Assembly (NCBI RefSeq): GCF_029961185.1
Contig: NZ_JASBQQ010000005.1
Span: 62,001-126,000, forward strand
From: Albidovulum aestuarii
GTDB taxonomy: Bacteria > Pseudomonadota > Alphaproteobacteria > Rhodobacterales > Rhodobacteraceae
Reading direction: 5' to 3'
DNA: 64,000 nucleotides
In this document: one piece after another, positions 29,677 through 42,192 of the stretch
Layout of the letters: every line of letters starts with the position of its first letter
How positions within the stretch are numbered: the stretch's first letter is position 1
The notes under the pieces: generated by a model
Told to the model about the DNA's origin: nothing
What the model saw: only the letters and a program-made list of their open reading frames with translations
The model's database searches: none
Program-made: the position numbers and the translations under genes

Positions 29677-30258
29677 ATGCCAAGTTTTACACCCGGTACA
29701 TTTATTGCCACGCCGACCGGTGAGCGCGCGATTGAGGATATGCGGCCGGGCGACCGGGTCATCACGCGGGATAGGGGCGTGCAGGAAGTCAAATGGGCCG
29801 GACGCCGACGGTTCAATCACACCGAACTCGCCTCTGCAGAGCATCTTGGGCCGGTGCTGATCAGCAAGGGCAGCCTGGGCAATGGTTTGCCGGAACGTGA
29901 CATGATGGTCAGCCCCAATCACCGGCTTCTGGTGCCCGGTGATCGTACAGTCCTGAAGCTCGAGCAGCATGAAGCACTGGTCGCGGCAAAGCACCTTATC
30001 AACTCCCGGACGATCCGTCGGGTAGACGCCCTGGGCGGTGCCTATGTCCATGTCGTGTGTTCTCAGGGAACGATGATGATGGCAAACGGCTGCTGGTCGG
30101 AGAGCTTTCAGCCAGCCGACAACAACCCCAACGGCCTCGGCAATGCCCAGCGCAACGAAGTTCTGGAGATCTTTCCCGAACTCGCGGCCAAGGCCGCGCG
30201 TCGTCCCGGTACCTTTCCAAGCCCGACACCGAGACGGGGACCGCAATTTCTGAACTGA
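29677..30258 (+). CDS. Hint-domain protein (Hedgehog/intein fold), copy 1
   Basis: A 193-aa protein that is almost only a Hint domain. It starts MPSFTPGTFIATPTGERAIE, where Ser3 sits at the nucleophile position usually held by Cys. GDRVITRDRGVQEVKWAGRR, VSPNHRLL (block B-like His) and ANGCWSESFQP follow, with a basic proline-rich tail. Hint domains catalyse N-S(O) acyl shift for splicing or autocleavage. Here no extein or large partner is fused. A homologous gene lies 230 bp downstream. The role is unknown. Confidence 0.85.
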   Translation: MPSFTPGTFIATPTGERAIEDMRPGDRVITRDRGVQEVKWAGRRRFNHTELASAEHLGPVLISKGSLGNGLPERDMMVSPNHRLLVPGDRTVLKLEQHEALVAAKHLINSRTIRRVDALGGAYVHVVCSQGTMMMANGCWSESFQPADNNPNGLGNAQRNEVLEIFPELAAKAARRPGTFPSPTPRRGPQFLN

Positions 30259-30488
30259 CCACGAGCGAGATTGACCCAGTTGGATTTAGCTGGAACGGGC
30301 GCTGAAGGACCCGACGGGCAAGGCCATTTGCGGTGTTCAGCACAGAGCTATTAAGCGGCTAGATCTCCCCTCCGCGTTCGGGTGTGAAAATGCCCAGCCA
30401 ACGCCGTAATCGCGTCCAATTTAATCTCTATCCCAATTCGCGAAAGCCGTATATCGGCGGACCGGATAGCATGAATCGGGGCTTAGAG

Positions 30489-31184
30489 ATGTGTGTCATG
30501 ACCGATGTATCTGTTGACGACAGAGCAGCGGATTCCTTGGCTCCCTCTGCCATTTGCTGTGTTGCAGAAAGGGGGGCAGCGACAAAAGTCCCCCATACGC
30601 CCTGCTTTACTGGCGACACCGAAATCGCAACTGATCGCGGTGCTGTTCCGATTGAGCACCTTCGGGTCGGTGACCGGGTTCTGACGCGGGACAACGGATA
30701 TCGTGAGGTTCGCTGGATCGGGGGCCGCCGCTTCGATTCGGCGGACCTCGCGCGTTTCCCTGAGCTTCGGCCGATCCGTATTGCCGCGAATTCCTTCGCG
30801 CGGGGTATCCCGCAGCGAGACCTCACGGTTAGTCCCCAGCATCGGCTGCTCCTGAGCGGCGCAGATGCGGTTGAACTCGGTGGCGAGACCGAAATCCTTG
30901 CCGCGGCGGTTGACCTGATGTCGGTGCTGAAAGCCGAACCGGCTGATGTCGACGGCGTGATCTACTACCACATCATGTTCGATGCGCACGAAATCATATG
31001 GGCCAACGGGTGCTGGTCAGAAAGTTTTCTGCCAGAGTCGGTGGCGCTGGAGGGACTGCATTCAGTGCAGCGTGAAGAAATTCTCAGGATATTCCCTGAA
31101 CTTGATACCGATTCTGGTCAGGTTGCCTATCCTGCGGCCCGTGGTGGGCTGACGATCCGACCACAACTGACACTGGTCGCCTGA
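30489..31184 (+). CDS. Hint-domain protein (Hedgehog/intein fold), copy 2
   Basis: A 231-aa protein as annotated, with about 35-40 residues before the Hint domain. The domain begins PCFTGDTEIATDRGAVPIEH with a canonical Cys and continues GDRVLTRDNGYREVRWIGGR, VSPQHRLLLSG and ANGCWSESFLP. Paralogy to the upstream gene extends to the C-terminal QREEILRIFPEL. The start is uncertain: ATGs at 30384, 30471, 30489 and 30498 are all in frame, none with a strong ribosome site. Confidence 0.8.
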   Translation: MCVMTDVSVDDRAADSLAPSAICCVAERGAATKVPHTPCFTGDTEIATDRGAVPIEHLRVGDRVLTRDNGYREVRWIGGRRFDSADLARFPELRPIRIAANSFARGIPQRDLTVSPQHRLLLSGADAVELGGETEILAAAVDLMSVLKAEPADVDGVIYYHIMFDAHEIIWANGCWSESFLPESVALEGLHSVQREEILRIFPELDTDSGQVAYPAARGGLTIRPQLTLVA

Positions 31185-31898: not shown

Positions 31899-34325
31899 TC
31901 AGCCCCGCATTCTCGCGCCATCCGCATCCCAAAGCGGGCCGTCGATCAGCCGCGCCTTACGGTTTTCGCCGAGGATTTCGATCTCAACTTCCAGCCCGGC
32001 GCGGATCATTTCTGTCGGCACGAACCCTTGCGCTACGGATTGCCCGGTCCAATGCGAATAGCCGCCCGATGTACAGAAACCCAAGACCTTGTCGCCGATC
32101 CAGATCGGCTCGTAGGCCACGACATCAGCATCCGTCGCATCGACGATGAAGGCGCAGAGTTTGCGCTTGGGCCCTTCGGCCTTTTCCTTGGTCGCGGGGG
32201 CCTTGCCGATCCAGTCGGCTTCCTTGTTCCAGCGGATGAAGCGGTCAATGCCCGTCTCGCCCGGAAAGTAATCGGGGCTGAATTCGCGTGCCCAGGACCC
32301 GAAGAGCTTGTCGAGGCGCAGCGACATCATCGCCCGCATCCCGAAGGGGCGCAGCCCGAGGTCCTGTCCTGCGGCCCAGAGCGTGTGCCAGAGGCTACGT
32401 TCACTCATGAAATCGGTGAAGATTTCATAGCCAAGGTCGCCGGTATAACTCACGCGCTGGACAAGGCAGTCCGCCATGCCGATCGTCATGCGCTTGGCAT
32501 CCATGAACTTGAACGCGTCGGCCGAAACGTCCGATCGGGTGACACGGGACAGAAGCTCCCGTGCATTCGGACCCGCGATCTGGAAGCCGGTCACACGGTC
32601 CGAGACGTTTTCGACCGTGACCCCATCTTCAAGGTTCTTTTCGAACCAGCGGAGATGCTGGTCCTGCGCGCCATAGCTGCCGGTGATCTGGAATTCGGTT
32701 TCGTTAAGGCACGTTACGGTGAAGTCGCCGATGATCTTGCCCTTGTGGCTGAGCATCGGGGTCAGGGACAGTCGGCCCTGTTTCGGGATCGCGCCCGCCA
32801 TGATCCGGTCGAGCCATTTGCGCGCATTCGGACCCTTCACGCGGAACTTGCCGAAGTTCTGCACCTCGTTGATGCCAACCGCCTCACGCACCGCGCGGAC
32901 TTCCGCCGCCGTTGCCTCCCATGCGTTGGACCGCTTAAACGATGGCGTCTCGTAACGCGGCTCGCCGGGCAGGGCGAAGTAGTTTACGACCTCAAGACCG
33001 TATTGCTGGCCCCAGACCGCGCCCATGCCGTCGAAGATGTCGTACATCGGCGTGGTGCGGAAGGGGCGGGCAGCGGGGCGTTCCTCGTTCGGATAGCTGA
33101 CCGAGAACCGCATCTGGTAGTTCTCGATCACCTTCGGAACGGTGTAGCCGGGTGTCGTCCATTTGCCGAAGCGGGCCACGTCAAAGCCGCGCGGGTCGAC
33201 CTCGGTCTCGCCGTGGATCATCCATTCGGCGAGAGATTTGCCCATGCCGCCGCCTTGGCTGAAGCCCGCCATGACCGCACAGGCAGACCAGTAATTCCTG
33301 AGACCCGGCACTGGTCCAATGAGGGGGTTGCCGTCCGGGGCGAAGGTGAAGGGGCCATGGATGACATTTTTGACGCCGGCCTTCTCAAGCACGGGGAACC
33401 GCTTGTACGCGAAGGCCACGGAATCCTCGATCTTGTCGAGGTTGTCGGGCAGAAGCTCGTGCCCGAAAGTCCAGGGTGTGCCATCCAACGACCAACCTTC
33501 ACAGGGCTTTTCATAAAAGCCGATGCAGAGGCCGCGGCCTTCCTGACGCAGATAGCTTTCGCCGCCGGGGTCCATGACATGCGGAAATTCGCGGCCCGAA
33601 TTCAGGATGTCCATGATTTCGGGGATCTCGTCGGTGACGAGATACTGGTGCGCCATCGGCAGAAGCGGGAAGTAAACGCCCGCCATCGCGCCCACTTCAC
33701 GCGCCCAAAGGCCACCGGCGTTAACGACATGTTCAGCGTGGACGGTGCCTTTTTCGGTTACCAAGTCCCACGTGCTATCCGAGCGGGGATTGGTCTCCAG
33801 CACGCGGTTGTGTTCAACGATCTCCGCACCGCCCATCTTCGCCGCGCGGGCATAGGCATGCGTGGTGCCGGACGGGTCAAGATGGCCGTCAAGGGGATCA
33901 TAAAGAGCACCGACAATACCCTTGGTATTTACAAGGCCATCAGTGTATTTTTCTATCTCTTCGGGGCCGAAAAGTTCGGTATGAAGTCCCATATAGCGAT
34001 GCTTTGCGCGTTCCGCCTTCAGCATCTCGAACCGCGCCTGATTGTCGGCCAGCGTGATACCGCCGACATGGTGAAGACCGCAGGACATGCCGGTGATCTT
34101 CTCAAGTTCTTTGTAAAGTTGGATCGTATAACCCTGCAGGGCGGCCATATTGGTGTCGCCGTTCAATGTGTGGAAACCACCGGCTGCGTGCCAGGTGGAA
34201 CCAGAGGTGAGTGTCGATCTTTCGATCAGCATCACATCCTTCCAGCCGTATTTCGTCAGGTGATAGAGCACCGAGCAACCGACGACGCCGCCGCCGATGA
34301 CCACAACCTGTGCCTGGGTCTTCAT
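31899..34325 (-). CDS. FAD-dependent dimethylglycine dehydrogenase / GcvT-type aminomethyltransferase
   Basis: An 808-aa two-part enzyme. The DAO-type FAD domain (about 5-370) has GGGVVG at 11-16 and SGSTWHAAGG with His46, the residue that carries covalent flavin in dimethylglycine dehydrogenases. A linker follows, then a GcvT/aminomethyltransferase folate domain to the end (VQNFGKFRVKGPNARKWLDR, SYTGDLGYEIF, RLDKLFGSWAREFSPDYFPG). It would oxidatively demethylate dimethylglycine (or sarcosine) and pass the methyl as methylene-THF. GGGAGG precedes the ATG. It links to glycine betaine made by the carnitine and choline sulfate genes. Exact substrate among methylglycines is inferred. Confidence 0.85.
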   Translation of the reverse strand: MKTQAQVVVIGGGVVGCSVLYHLTKYGWKDVMLIERSTLTSGSTWHAAGGFHTLNGDTNMAALQGYTIQLYKELEKITGMSCGLHHVGGITLADNQARFEMLKAERAKHRYMGLHTELFGPEEIEKYTDGLVNTKGIVGALYDPLDGHLDPSGTTHAYARAAKMGGAEIVEHNRVLETNPRSDSTWDLVTEKGTVHAEHVVNAGGLWAREVGAMAGVYFPLLPMAHQYLVTDEIPEIMDILNSGREFPHVMDPGGESYLRQEGRGLCIGFYEKPCEGWSLDGTPWTFGHELLPDNLDKIEDSVAFAYKRFPVLEKAGVKNVIHGPFTFAPDGNPLIGPVPGLRNYWSACAVMAGFSQGGGMGKSLAEWMIHGETEVDPRGFDVARFGKWTTPGYTVPKVIENYQMRFSVSYPNEERPAARPFRTTPMYDIFDGMGAVWGQQYGLEVVNYFALPGEPRYETPSFKRSNAWEATAAEVRAVREAVGINEVQNFGKFRVKGPNARKWLDRIMAGAIPKQGRLSLTPMLSHKGKIIGDFTVTCLNETEFQITGSYGAQDQHLRWFEKNLEDGVTVENVSDRVTGFQIAGPNARELLSRVTRSDVSADAFKFMDAKRMTIGMADCLVQRVSYTGDLGYEIFTDFMSERSLWHTLWAAGQDLGLRPFGMRAMMSLRLDKLFGSWAREFSPDYFPGETGIDRFIRWNKEADWIGKAPATKEKAEGPKRKLCAFIVDATDADVVAYEPIWIGDKVLGFCTSGGYSHWTGQSVAQGFVPTEMIRAGLEVEIEILGENRKARLIDGPLWDADGARMRG

Positions 34326-34967: not shown

Positions 34968-37583
34968 TCAATTGCGATAGGTCAGATCGGAATTCGACCG
35001 TTGGAACAACGCCTCGAACCTTGCAAACGCGTACCGAGTGGCCAATCCGATGGCAAATGCGCCGGGCACAACGATCAGGGCAGAGAGAACTGGTCCGGCC
35101 AACTGGTAAAGACCGGTGTAAAATTTCCAGAAGTGGATGACCGTGGTGTGCGTGAGATAGACGAACATGGTGGCGGTCCCGAGGTGCCGTGCAGCGCGAG
35201 CGAACGAGAAGGGCAGTTGCGGTGTCAGAGGAAGCAACAATGTTAATGCAGCGCCGACGATCATCACCCGCTCATGCAACGTCCAGACTGGCAAGACGAT
35301 ACATGTCAGCACCAGTGCCCCAATGCACCAAAGCTTGCGCCGGGCATCGTGGGCAAGTGAAATAGACCAGCCGAGGAACACCAGTGGCAATAGCGTGAAG
35401 AGAGTACGTGCCAGCGGCAACCCCAAGCCGCCTTCCAGCATGTTGCCCAAGAGGGAAGTATGCGCACCGAAAAGCTGCACGACGACAGAAAGGCCGGAGG
35501 AAATCAACGTCGCCAGAATACCAAATTTGAAGGGGGATGTGGCGATTGCGCGTCGCACTACTGCCATACGGGTCAGTAGTACAAGGGAGAGGACAATCTG
35601 AGCATAGAGGCTGATGAACCAGAACGGTTCGAACAGATCATGATCAAGACGTTGCGGTATGTTTCCGAGAAGCAAATACATCTCGACGGGGATGTAACCC
35701 CGAACAACGTCGTACACGGCGAGCAGCAGATAATAGATCGGTAAGATCGGGATCAACAATGATCGCGCGAGCAGTACTGCTTTACCCTCTGCCATCGCGT
35801 TCTTCTGATAGCGGGCAAGGGAATAGCCCATGAGCAGAAGCAGCACGAAAGTTCCACCGCTAACCGGCCAGAGTGTTAGGTGATAAAGAACCACACAGCC
35901 GATTGCGAAGATACGTAGACAAGTTGCCAGCTCAACATGTGCCGTTGGCGCGGGCAGGCGTGGCTCAATCGCTTCGAGATTGGCAAGAGACATGTGTTCC
36001 CATCCGTCGGGAACAAATCCCAGGCGTTCCTCAATCGCGAGTTGCGCGTGAAGGTAGCCAAGCGAGTCCCCGCCCAGATCGACGAAACTATGCTCATGAG
36101 AGATATCGCGGGCACGGGTCGCCTCACGATACGCGGTAACGAGCCCGGGTCCGGTGTGTTGCCTTTCACGGTTTAAATTTGCGGCCGCGCGCGCCAGGGC
36201 AAACAGGTGGCGCCGGTCTAGTTTGCCATTGTCCAAAACGGGGGCGTCGGCCAGTGGGGCTACCAGGATCGCTTCCTGCGGCAGGGTCAGGTGGTCCGAG
36301 AGAATGGACCGGACATCGTCCGGATCGCCATTGGCGTTCAATACGACAATCTGGTCGTCGACCGCCTCGGCCCATGCCGTTATCCCGGATTCGGCCAGAA
36401 AATACTCTGCCTCGTCCAGACTGATACGCAGGCCGAACAGCTTTGCGAAGCGCGAAGCGCGCCCGACGATCCGGTAATATCCCTGCTCAGTCCTCTCGGC
36501 AAAGTCACCTGTCTTCAGGTTCGGTGTCACATCGCCAAGCGAAAGGTCGGCGCGACTCGTCGCGTATCCCATCATCACGTTGGGTCCGGAATAGACAAGT
36601 TCTCCCGGTATTCCGGTACCAATGATCTCATGACCGGCATCGTTGGTCAGCCAGAACTTGCCACCGGGAATAGCGGTGCCAACCGTGTCAGAGGCGTGAA
36701 GTGCTTCTTCAGGGGGCAGGTAGGCCATACGAGGGCTCGCCTCGGTCTGACCGTACATGACGAAGAATTTCCATCCTCCGGCTTCCGCGATTGACGCCAT
36801 CCGCCGTACTGTTGCGGGCGCTAATCTCCCGCCCGCCTGAGTAACGCGGCGAAGTGCGGGGAGCGTCGCGAAGTCGAATCCACGACCCAGAAGCAGATCA
36901 ACCTGATGGGGTACAAGCGCGAGGCTCGTCACCCCCATACGCCGGGCCTGTGGACCAAAGTCCGGATCGACGACCGACATTTCCATCAAGACCAGTGAAG
37001 CGCCGGCATCAAGATGCGAGTTCAACACCGACAGTCCGTAGGAATAGTGCAGCGGCAATGTGGTCGCACCGCGATCATCACTGTTCAGGTCAAGATAGGT
37101 GCGGATCGCCGCGGCGTTGCTGAAAACATTGGTTGCCGACAGCCGCACAAGCTTGGGGTCACCTGTGGTGCCCGATGTCGAAAGCAGAATACGAAGATCG
37201 TTGTGCAATTCCGACGGAGAGTCTGACCGTCGATCAATGCCGAAGCCTCCACCGCTCCCTGAAAGCACAAGGTTCGGTTGATGAATTGTGTCGATTCTCC
37301 GACCGGCGACCAGAGTTTCGGCGGCAGCAATCACGATGGCATGGCCATCTTGCAGCGCAGCCAGATAGGCGGCAATCGGCTCAGGCTCCGCCGTTAGCGC
37401 CAGTCCTAACAACAGCCGTTCCGTTCCAATTCGATCGGCTTCCGCGCGCAACAGGGCTCGCCAGGCAGAGCAGCGTTCACGCAACCCGCCATAGGTAATG
37501 CTACGGCCATCGGGTTGGATCAACGCCGTCGCGTCGGCAGGCACATTGTTGAAGGATTCCGGGAAATCGGAGAATTCAAACAT
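34968..37583 (-). CDS. Adenylation domain - carrier protein - acyltransferase 3 fusion
   Basis: An 871-aa protein with three modules. Residues about 15-455 are an AMP-forming adenylation domain: LLSTSGTTGDPK at 133-144, YGQTEA at 277-282, TGD at 358-360 and the C-terminal catalytic Lys454 in NGKLDRR. A carrier domain follows, with DLGGDSL at 502-508 and Ser507 as phosphopantetheine site. Residues about 552-865 are an acyltransferase-3 (OafA-type) membrane domain with the R-X10-H motif (Arg557...His568). It looks like one polypeptide that activates a carboxylic or amino acid, loads it on a carrier arm and transfers it across the membrane. The acceptor is unknown. The ATG at 37583 is preferred over an upstream TTG. 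Confidence 0.8.
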   Translation of the reverse strand: MFEFSDFPESFNNVPADATALIQPDGRSITYGGLRERCSAWRALLRAEADRIGTERLLLGLALTAEPEPIAAYLAALQDGHAIVIAAAETLVAGRRIDTIHQPNLVLSGSGGGFGIDRRSDSPSELHNDLRILLSTSGTTGDPKLVRLSATNVFSNAAAIRTYLDLNSDDRGATTLPLHYSYGLSVLNSHLDAGASLVLMEMSVVDPDFGPQARRMGVTSLALVPHQVDLLLGRGFDFATLPALRRVTQAGGRLAPATVRRMASIAEAGGWKFFVMYGQTEASPRMAYLPPEEALHASDTVGTAIPGGKFWLTNDAGHEIIGTGIPGELVYSGPNVMMGYATSRADLSLGDVTPNLKTGDFAERTEQGYYRIVGRASRFAKLFGLRISLDEAEYFLAESGITAWAEAVDDQIVVLNANGDPDDVRSILSDHLTLPQEAILVAPLADAPVLDNGKLDRRHLFALARAAANLNRERQHTGPGLVTAYREATRARDISHEHSFVDLGGDSLGYLHAQLAIEERLGFVPDGWEHMSLANLEAIEPRLPAPTAHVELATCLRIFAIGCVVLYHLTLWPVSGGTFVLLLLMGYSLARYQKNAMAEGKAVLLARSLLIPILPIYYLLLAVYDVVRGYIPVEMYLLLGNIPQRLDHDLFEPFWFISLYAQIVLSLVLLTRMAVVRRAIATSPFKFGILATLISSGLSVVVQLFGAHTSLLGNMLEGGLGLPLARTLFTLLPLVFLGWSISLAHDARRKLWCIGALVLTCIVLPVWTLHERVMIVGAALTLLLPLTPQLPFSFARAARHLGTATMFVYLTHTTVIHFWKFYTGLYQLAGPVLSALIVVPGAFAIGLATRYAFARFEALFQRSNSDLTYRN

Positions 37584-37601: not shown

Positions 37602-37634
37602 AACCCGGCCCAAACTATTCGATCAGGCCGGGTT
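37602..37634 (-). terminator. Terminator-like hairpin after livM
   Basis: AACCCGGCC and GGCCGGGTT (9-bp perfect arms) flank a 15-nt loop, followed on the minus strand by TTGTTTG. It lies between the livM stop (37662) and the start of the adenylation fusion gene (37583), so it probably separates the two transcripts. Confidence 0.5.
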
Positions 37635-40151: not shown

Positions 40152-40529
40152 TCAGCTGCCCGCTGAAGAACCGTCAGCGCCAAGGATCGGTTCACTTACC
40201 ACGACGCAGATACCCGTTCCTTCCGCCGCGCGGCTGCCATCTGCAAAGAACTCATAAACGCCTGTTGAGGTATTGACCGTATAGTTCAGCGAATAGTCGT
40301 CACCGAGGAAGAGAAACGTCTTGCTCCCTTCGCCGTCATAAATAAGCGCTTCGACTTGCTGATCCCCGAAGGAAATCATCCCAACCGACGCCTCGTCCGG
40401 CTGTGTCAACGTCGCGCTCATTTCCGGGGTTGCGGCATTTTCGATCTGGCATTCATAGGCAAACTCTTTCGCGCCAACGCTGGCCGGAAGTGCGATAGCA
40501 ATCGCCAAGATACCACTGAAGACCTTCAT
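40152..40529 (-). CDS. Small secreted protein, paralogous triplet member 1
   Basis: A 125-aa protein with signal peptide (MKVFSGILAIAIALPASVGA). The mature part has two cysteines, in YECQIENAATPEMSATL and GTGICVVVSE, and the shared segments FLFLGDDYSLNYTV and GVYEFFADGS. It is the most divergent of three tandem homologues. A disulfide between the two Cys is likely in the periplasm. Layout is faintly like MliC-type lysozyme inhibitors, but I cannot support that assignment. Confidence 0.75.
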   Translation of the reverse strand: MKVFSGILAIAIALPASVGAKEFAYECQIENAATPEMSATLTQPDEASVGMISFGDQQVEALIYDGEGSKTFLFLGDDYSLNYTVNTSTGVYEFFADGSRAAEGTGICVVVSEPILGADGSSAGS

Positions 40530-40692
40530 AACCTGATCACTCCTGCCGAATCCACTCAATCGCAGCTAGCCATCCAATAGGGCTGTAGTTTGTTCAGAAT
40601 CCGGGTGAGGTTGGGTATTGGGCGACTTCTCTGAACAACCGAAAAGCCGCCACCGCATTGTTTCAATACCGAGCTTAATACCGACCCTGTTT

Positions 40693-41025
40693 TCACCCTG
40701 CCGTTTTCACGCAGTCTCCGCGCTTGTCACCGCGCATGGTGCCCGAGGCCGAGTAATCGTAAAATCCTTCTTCGGTGTGGACCGCATATTGCATGGTGAA
40801 GCCTTTACCAACATGCAGAAAGGTCAGCGTATCGAGGCCGCGTAGAACCATCGCCTCTTTCTCGCTGCCGCCGATCCGGATTGTTCCCTTGTCCTGGCCA
40901 TCAAACTGGATGAGCTGCGCGCCCATTTCCGGCGCCGCTTCATCAGGAGTGCCGCAGTCGAAGACGAGGTCGGCAGCAAAACCGATGGAAGGCAGCATCA
41001 AAAAGGCGATGGCCAGGAATTTCAT
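40693..41025 (-). CDS. Small secreted protein, paralogous triplet member 2
   Basis: A 110-aa protein. After the signal peptide (MKFLAIAFLMLPSIGFA) the mature protein has VFDCGTPDEAAPEMGAQL, LDTLTFLHVGKGFTMQYAV, YDYSASGTMRG and a C-terminal GDCVKTAG. GGAG sits 6 nt before ATG 41025. It is closely related to member 3 and clearly homologous to member 1. Function unknown. Confidence 0.78.
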   Translation of the reverse strand: MKFLAIAFLMLPSIGFAADLVFDCGTPDEAAPEMGAQLIQFDGQDKGTIRIGGSEKEAMVLRGLDTLTFLHVGKGFTMQYAVHTEEGFYDYSASGTMRGDKRGDCVKTAG

Positions 41026-41394
41026 GAGAGGCTCCATAGATGTGTTTCGCGGCGGCTCTAGAAGGTTATTGAGGCCGGACTTTGTCGGGATCGTGAGAGA
41101 GTTGCGCTGCCGTTTCCAAAACGCGAACCGTTAGGGTTATGCCGTCTTCATTGTTGCGAAACCGATTAGGCTAATGAAAAGGTAAATCTGCTTAGGCCCC
41201 CATCATTCAGGGGACACGCCAAACTCAAGACTTTGACCGGGATATGACGAATCGAGAATCCCGATCCGCAGGCCATGTCGTTTGGTCCGGCGGAAAGAAA
41301 TCGAACCCGCCGCCGGGCTAAGCCCGGGGCGGGTCCAACACTGTGCCACCACCATTCTTTTCACCCCGCCAGATGGCGGAGCCTTACGACAGAC
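41026..41394. other. Intergenic region containing an extragenic palindrome
   Basis: No gene is seen. At 41303-41336 an imperfect palindrome (GAACCCGCC...GGCGGGTCC with inner GCCGGGCT/AGCCCGG) resembles an extragenic repeat or terminator for the minus-strand gene ending at 41395. The remainder is unremarkable and presumably holds the promoter of triplet member 2. Confidence 0.5.
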
Positions 41395-41730
41395 CTAACC
41401 TGAGATCTGTTCGCAGGTCCCGTGACCATAACCACTCATGCTGCCCGAGAGCGAGTAATCGTAGGTGCCTTTTTGGGGATGAACGCTATAGTGCAGTGCA
41501 TAGCCCTCACCAATATACAAGAAAGTCAGCGTCCCAAGGCCGGAATAGACCTCGGCAGGGATCACATCATCACCGGTGATGATGTGACCCCGTTTTTCAC
41601 CATAGTACTTGGTCAGTTGGGCAACCATTTCGGGATGGGCGGCGTCGGGCGCGCCGCAGTTGAACACCAGATCTCCTGCCAAAGCGGGTATTGGCATAAG
41701 CAGGGCAATCGTCGAAACCAGAACTCTCAT
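41395..41730 (-). CDS. Small secreted protein, paralogous triplet member 3
   Basis: A 111-aa protein with signal peptide MRVLVSTIALLMPIPALA. The mature part shows VFNCGAPDAAHPEMVAQL, LGTLTFLYIGEGYALHYSV, YDYSLSGSMSG and GTCEQISG, the same two-cysteine framework as members 1 and 2. GGAG lies 8 nt before the ATG at 41730. It is the most upstream of the triplet on this strand. Confidence 0.78.
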   Translation of the reverse strand: MRVLVSTIALLMPIPALAGDLVFNCGAPDAAHPEMVAQLTKYYGEKRGHIITGDDVIPAEVYSGLGTLTFLYIGEGYALHYSVHPQKGTYDYSLSGSMSGYGHGTCEQISG

Positions 41731-42192
41731 TACACACACTCCACGACCGAACATGGTCAGGTATGAATATGATCATGAATTTCGTCGGGATTCTGTCGCG
41801 AACATGGGATTCATGGGTAGTTAATCATGAACTGAGAACGTTTCCTCCACGTGAAATCAGATTGTTCGCATTCAAACATCATTGGTCAGGAGAGCCCCCA
41901 AAGGGTGGCGCAACCATGAGAAGATTCCCTTAAAATTTAGCGCAAATGAGAATCGCCTCTCCCCCTTGAATCGTCGACGCTCTCAAAGATCACTCGCGAC
42001 TGGCGCTCGTAATACTTTGACATAGCCAGGCTCAGAAAGCCGCCAAATGATTACGCCTGGGATTCAAGCAGCAGACAATATCGCCTTCGGCCACCTATTT
42101 GATCAATTTTCAAACAGACGGACGCTAAACTCACGATACGACGGGTCAGACAAATCTGAAATTCGGGTGAACTACTTGCGTCGGGTTGACAC
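41731..42192. other. Intergenic region with no gene seen
   Basis: About 460 bp between the livF stop and the small-protein triplet, visibly richer in AT. No open frame has convincing codon use, and no terminator with a T-tract was found. It splits the transporter locus and probably carries the promoter for the triplet and perhaps livHM. Confidence 0.5.

Follow-up and report, generated by a model that had tools for sequence, protein, structure and literature searches.

A gene in the window, by which we mean the whole 64,000-nucleotide stretch of Albidovulum aestuarii DNA analysed here, joins an adenylation (A) domain, a carrier (T) domain and an acyltransferase-3 (AT3) membrane domain in one chain. 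It is likely that such A-T-AT3 proteins are one-chain machines for acyl loading and export, and that in the two main clades of the family they form part of the iron-starvation response; an iron role for the window copy is unsupported. That a single chain activates an acid, tethers it and transfers it had been proposed in an earlier note on this DNA, and conservation, structure models and natural exchanges of modules all lend this reading good support.

Gene, domains and immediate neighbourhood

The gene, its parts and its flanking features are as follows.

34968..37583, minus strand: A-T-AT3 gene, one 871-aa frame (ATG at 37583, stop ending at 34968)
36180..37583, minus strand: adenylation (ANL) domain, residues 1-468, with A3, A5, A7, A8 and A10 motifs intact
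35964..36152, minus strand: carrier (T/PP-binding) domain, residues 478-540, with the phosphopantetheine serine S507 in GGDSL
36063..36065, minus strand: codon of the invariant Ser507
34983..35951, minus strand: AT3 membrane domain, residues 545-867, assigned by Pfam and predicted TmAT fold
35880..35915, minus strand: R557-X10-H568 motif at the start of the first membrane helix (motif definition from PMC9833829)
37662..38957, minus strand: LivM, branched-chain amino acid ABC permease, upstream neighbour
31899..34325, minus strand: dimethylglycine/sarcosine dehydrogenase-like gene (DAO+GCV_T), downstream neighbour
37602..37634, minus strand: GC-rich hairpin AACCCGGCC...GGCCGGGTT between the livM stop and the A-T-AT3 start

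The frame is uninterrupted on contig C26 of genome G000, and an alternative in-frame TTG start is possible at 37613. Pfam and motif analyses confirmed the AMP-forming domain, the DLGGDSL carrier serine and the AT3 domain with R-X10-H that the earlier note had read on one chain; its coordinates for the 871-aa frame were correct, and the strand, which it had left unstated, is minus. The window protein matched AMP-binding (PF00501) with an E value of 1.5e-38 and Acyl_transf_3 (PF01757) with 33 bits against a cut-off of 31. The carrier domain scored 16.8 bits for PP-binding, under the Pfam cut-off of 20.8, and 53 of 57 aligned members matched this profile (E<=0.01). The carrier motif VDLGGDSL lies at residues 501-508, and a helix spans residues 507-521 in the full-chain model. 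In A4 of the adenylation domain, the acidic residue is replaced by S181. Pfam scans of the window protein and 57 members revealed no condensation domain, and with A4 lacking Asp the protein does not qualify as an NRPS module.

The hairpin has no strong T-run and gave no match in the terminator scan. It may be a terminator of the liv operon, and the presence of this GC-rich structure between livM and the A-T-AT3 gene makes co-transcription with liv uncertain. A role shared with the liv operon was rejected, since the LivM and dehydrogenase neighbours recur only beside the homolog L013; the neighbours of L014, L034 and L035 are unrelated to those in the window, and the gene upstream of L014 encodes DNA polymerase I. 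There is no glycan-gene neighbour at the window locus.

Three small genes on the minus strand (40152-40559, 40693-41037 and 41395-41754) are located between livF and livH and encode proteins with signal-peptide-like N termini. Two of them were compared and found to be 47% identical, and no Pfam match was obtained. Two tandem genes on the plus strand (29677-30258 and 30384-31184) encode proteins with Hint_2 (Hedgehog/intein-type) domains.

A widespread family of fused proteins

We gathered 106 family proteins with ~31-44% identity from genome searches, plasmids and GTDB contigs. The 80 GTDB loci were the best-scoring 80 of more than 500 and are not an unbiased sample; because of kinship within genera, counts are also given as groups at 65% identity. 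The homologs belong to Alphaproteobacteria and Actinomycetota, plus two gammaproteobacteria. Their distribution is patchy across the searched genus (22 genomes), family (295) and class (385): within the genus, 5 of the other 21 genomes carried full-length relatives with 36-38% identity; at the family level, relatives, some of them not full length, were present in about 13 of 295 genomes. When the three-domain order was searched for in Rhodobacteraceae, as the earlier note had suggested, it was found to recur, in a family that is widespread and has mostly fused members.

Nearly all of the 106 homologs are fused. The exceptions are L022 and L023, which are split with the AT3 gene adjacent, and L100, a frame without an AT3 match. 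An assembly or annotation fusion was ruled out by the fused homologs at more than 100 loci. S507 is invariant (106/106), as are the adenylation residues E281, D360, R375, K381 and K454; R557 was present in 104/104 and H568 in 103/103 of the homologs with a residue at that position, and W655 and G738 of the AT3 part are likewise near invariant. Neither separate frames nor loss of the carrier serine or His568 characterises the family as a whole, and the conservation of architecture and catalytic residues far exceeds chance. The family genes are currently annotated merely as 'AMP-binding protein', and no description of the A-T-AT3 fusion or its iron link was found in the open-access literature.

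In the divergent pair L021 and L026, the carrier motif is GGSS or SGTS, in which the Ser is kept and the Asp is gone. On a Paracoccus plasmid (L027, 8740-12550), the replication initiator gene is followed, at a distance of 20 bases, by the start of the family gene.

Structure models of the ligase and membrane parts

A full-chain model was built from a 57-row alignment and had a pLDDT of 90.1. The adenylation model was closest to PigI, PltF, HitB, CmiS6 and VinN, with Z of about 34.5-36. When the AT3 part was folded alone, the pLDDT was 90.7 and the pTM 0.89. By VIA-align, the AT3 model matched HGSNAT with a Z of 13.0 over 282 residues, which is around the level where helical bundles may match by chance, and GWT1 with a Z of 10.8, the next unrelated row having 5.5; yet the four top rows were all transmembrane acyltransferases. 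Foldseek alone gave no AT3 match and nothing significant for this model, and phmmer found no solved structure of a sequence relative of the AT3 part. HGSNAT/GWT1-type transmembrane acyltransferases and AT3 have been placed in one TmAT superfamily (PMC12423673), and the AT3 part is predicted to have this fold and to group with sugar acyltransferases.

Predicted acid and acyl donor

HMMER alignment to VinN placed S181 of the window protein at the position of the amino-binding Asp. This position was S in 32/34 and C in 2/34 members of the alphaproteobacterial iron clade, and C in 49/50 members of the actinobacterial clade. The adenylation pocket, from which the earlier note had proposed to predict specificity, therefore has Ser or Cys in place of Asp in almost all members. 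As the amino-binding Asp is replaced, the acid is probably not an ordinary alpha-amino acid, and we infer from the pocket residues that a non-amino carboxylic acid would be the substrate.

The RXXR motif on the cytoplasmic face of AT3 helix 3 is highly conserved in AT3 proteins, though not absolutely (PMC9833829). It was intact in 0/102 aligned members, a count that depends on the alignment, and the six window-clade members have neither of its basic residues. The loss of an intact RXXR suggests that the contact with CoA has been lost and that the donor may now be the tethered phosphopantetheine arm. Among phosphopantetheinyl transferases, the genome yielded AcpS alone (133 aa, encoded beside lepB and rnc).

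Iron link of the two largest clades

Sequence evidence links the two largest clades to iron, with the boxes described below as predicted regulation. Among the 40 actinobacterial loci that were well flanked (at least 4.2 kb on both sides), the gene adjoined a complete FbpABC Fe(III) importer in 28. The importer set consists of a FutA/SfuA-type binding protein, a permease (FbpB) and an ATPase (FbpC), in agreement with the RefSeq annotation, and the best PDB match of the binding protein was SfuA (E 9e-134). In mycobacteria, Lentzea and Saccharothrix the set lies upstream and overlaps by 4 bases, in Streptomyces it is divergent, and in Rhodococcus it lies downstream. Such a system in Arthrobacter imports free ferric ions (PMC3534580).

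Nine motif strings were tried. The IdeR/DtxR consensus TTAGGTTAG(G/C)CTAACCTAA (PMC1382209) was fixed in advance, and a box was called when at least 14/19 positions matched within -300..+45 of the gene. IdeR boxes were present at 23/50 actinobacterial loci (14/29 groups at 65% identity), with a shuffle mean of 0.05 and an 82x enrichment over the rest of the loci. In the operon cases, the box lies ~3.6 kb upstream, ahead of the binding-protein gene. Of the 12 well-flanked actinobacterial loci that lack FbpABC, 10 have an iron box a short distance upstream of the A-T-AT3 gene.

A second box, TTGACT-N5-AGTCAA, was present at 19/56 other loci, mostly alphaproteobacterial (7/34 groups), with a shuffle mean of 0.05 and a 76x enrichment; its core was tightened after the first scan, which makes the threshold partly post hoc, and the box is supported by the shuffles and by the actinobacterial control. 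It is one form of the RirA palindrome TGA-N9-TCA (PMC8822346). Irr/ICE and Fur strings gave nothing above the 99th percentile of the background. RirA has been studied in Dinoroseobacter (PMC8007024). As RirA has been reported absent in Rhodobacterales (PMC3413700), another Rrf2-type regulator may read the box there. In the protein itself, all 83 iron-clade members have Glu at position 658.

In Rhizobium (L031, 12668-17593), and also at L058 and L087, genes for an AAA ATPase, a YcaO-like and a TfuA-like protein are located directly downstream of an iron-clade member.

The window copy belongs to a third, small clade

In the tree, the window copy grouped with L013, L014, L015, L034 and L035, outside both iron clades. 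With the motifs tried, no iron box was found at the window copy, and FbpABC does not adjoin it; box and Fbp genes were likewise absent from the rest of its clade, where the flanks of L013, L014 and L015 are short. Position 658 was S, N or C in all six members. With box, Fbp genes and Glu658 all missing, there is no justification for assigning the iron role to the window copy as well. The genome does have a FutA-like gene elsewhere (G000:C12). The presence of FutA was rejected as a discriminator within the genus, since 21/22 genomes have it.

Proposed mechanism and alternative explanations

The intact motifs suggest that the adenylation domain would first form an acyl-AMP from a carboxylic acid. 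The acyl group would then move onto the phosphopantetheine arm at S507 of the same chain, as its invariant Ser implies. The predicted fold and the conserved R557/H568 are consistent with a third step, in which the arm, in place of acyl-CoA, would enter the AT3 pore and His568 would aid acyl transfer to an acceptor beyond the cytoplasmic membrane. For the iron-linked members of both main clades, the acylated product would probably assist in trapping ferric iron on or close to the cell surface. The earlier note had suggested that a general envelope component may be modified; the best-supported clue to function in the family is iron acquisition, and it applies to the two large clades, not to the window copy. 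The chemistry of the window copy is very likely the same, and its acceptor would most plausibly be an envelope glycan or lipid.

A more specific proposal, which we make tentatively, is that the A-T-AT3 family is an unrecognised component of iron acquisition in Actinomycetota and Alphaproteobacteria. A single polypeptide would make an acyl ligand, tether it and attach it to the cell exterior or to a small molecule that is exported; ferric iron would thereby be captured and handed to FbpABC in naked form.

Another possible, though somewhat doubtful, explanation is that the family only O- or N-acylates envelope glycans, and that iron control in some clades is no more than a sign of a changing surface under iron stress. 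Acylation of extracytoplasmic sugars is the known activity of characterised AT3 proteins (PMC9558356, PMC9833829). In addition, the non-iron relatives L022, L036, L038 and L075 adjoin sugar-transferase, glycosyltransferase/GtrA, sugar-nucleotide dehydratase or flippase-type genes; for these members, this speaks in favour of a glycan of the envelope as acceptor. However, acylation of glycans alone leaves the repeated operon with an Fe(III) importer in many actinobacterial genera unexplained. At two of these loci (L036, 12673-14190; L038, 8785-9885), STAND/AAA-type NTPase genes adjoin the non-iron relatives, with the sugar-nucleotide/glycosyltransferase genes beyond.

It is unlikely that the protein alone makes a small secreted, siderophore-like chelator, in which the acyl group is put on a small amine or sugar and FbpABC imports the bound iron. 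The iron boxes and FbpABC operons of the main clades would fit, as would an adenylation fold nearest to natural-product carrier-protein ligases. However, the surroundings of the family gene show no recurring exporter, receptor or further biosynthetic gene, FbpA-type proteins bind naked Fe(III) rather than ferric siderophores (PMC3534580), and the window copy has no iron link.

Lipid remodelling is improbable. Here the A-T part would activate a fatty acid and the membrane part would acylate a phospholipid, as in Aas-type acyl-ACP ligase/O-acyltransferase fusions. The ligase part is weakly similar to the PRK08633 and PRK06814 profiles (91 and 86 bits), but these scores are far under the curated cut-offs of 1221 and 1349 bits. 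PlsC is absent, as Pfam scans of 57 members gave only AMP-binding, PP-binding and Acyl_transf_3, and the predicted AT3 fold groups with sugar acyltransferases.

That the AT3 part is a mere membrane anchor, with the A-T part serving another pathway, is very improbable: its identity to the window copy is 17-34% (A3), below that of the whole protein, but R557, H568, W655 and G738 are nearly invariant, and an A-T part that is not fused to AT3 still has an acyltransferase partner, either AT3 or SGNH plus MBOAT. The latter is seen in Photobacterium sanctipauli (L073, 9965-14038), where an SGNH/GDSL domain follows the A-T part in the same chain and the next gene directly downstream encodes an MBOAT; it is a natural swap in which another membrane acyltransferase replaces AT3. 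That a partner recurs while its type varies argues that loading and membrane transfer act together, as the one-chain activation, tethering and transfer reading proposes.

Comparison with known systems

Like the Dlt system (DltA, DltC, DltB and DltD), the window protein would combine ATP-dependent activation, carrier tethering and a membrane O-acyltransferase directed at an envelope acceptor. Dlt consists of separate proteins with an MBOAT, whereas the window protein is one chain with AT3. This contrast, drawn in the earlier note, stands, and the architecture extends beyond this genome to a widespread family. DltA is also an amino-acid ligase, whereas the window protein has S181 at the amino-binding Asp position.

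The adenylation fold is shared with PigI/PltF, HitB and VinN, and the alignment to VinN also has the MYGQTE...PP style. Unlike the window protein, these are stand-alone ligases acting on separate carrier proteins. They activate amino acids and have an acidic residue in A4, which for VinN was seen in the HMMER alignment. The exosortase-A-associated ligase (TIGR03098) is the best NCBIfam match of the window protein and is matched by all 57 aligned members, but the window protein reached 139.7 bits against a cut-off of 592, and the model has no carrier or AT3 fusion. FbpABC/SfuABC adjoins most well-flanked actinobacterial members and is absent beside the window gene.

With the AT3/TmAT enzymes OafB, OatA, HGSNAT and GWT1, the window protein shares R-X10-H, the predicted fold and a membrane domain; it differs in its N-terminal ligase-carrier partner and in RXXR, which is not intact. 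The AT3 fusions described in two reviews are to SGNH or alanine racemase (PMC9558356, PMC9833829). The family is a well-supported, uncharacterised kind of AT3 enzyme that has the predicted fold and the catalytic motif of the group and probably a different donor supply. The current view of AT3 enzymes is that acyl-CoA is drawn into a pore in the membrane; a loading domain and carrier of their own would be a second donor strategy, and one open to study, since a soluble fragment suffices to assay loading. If true, the use of a covalently tethered carrier rather than acyl-CoA would, to our knowledge, be shown here for an AT3 enzyme for the first time. The iron boxes in two phyla, together with FbpABC in Actinomycetota, bear on how Fe(III) reaches naked-Fe(III) importers that have no known siderophore partner.
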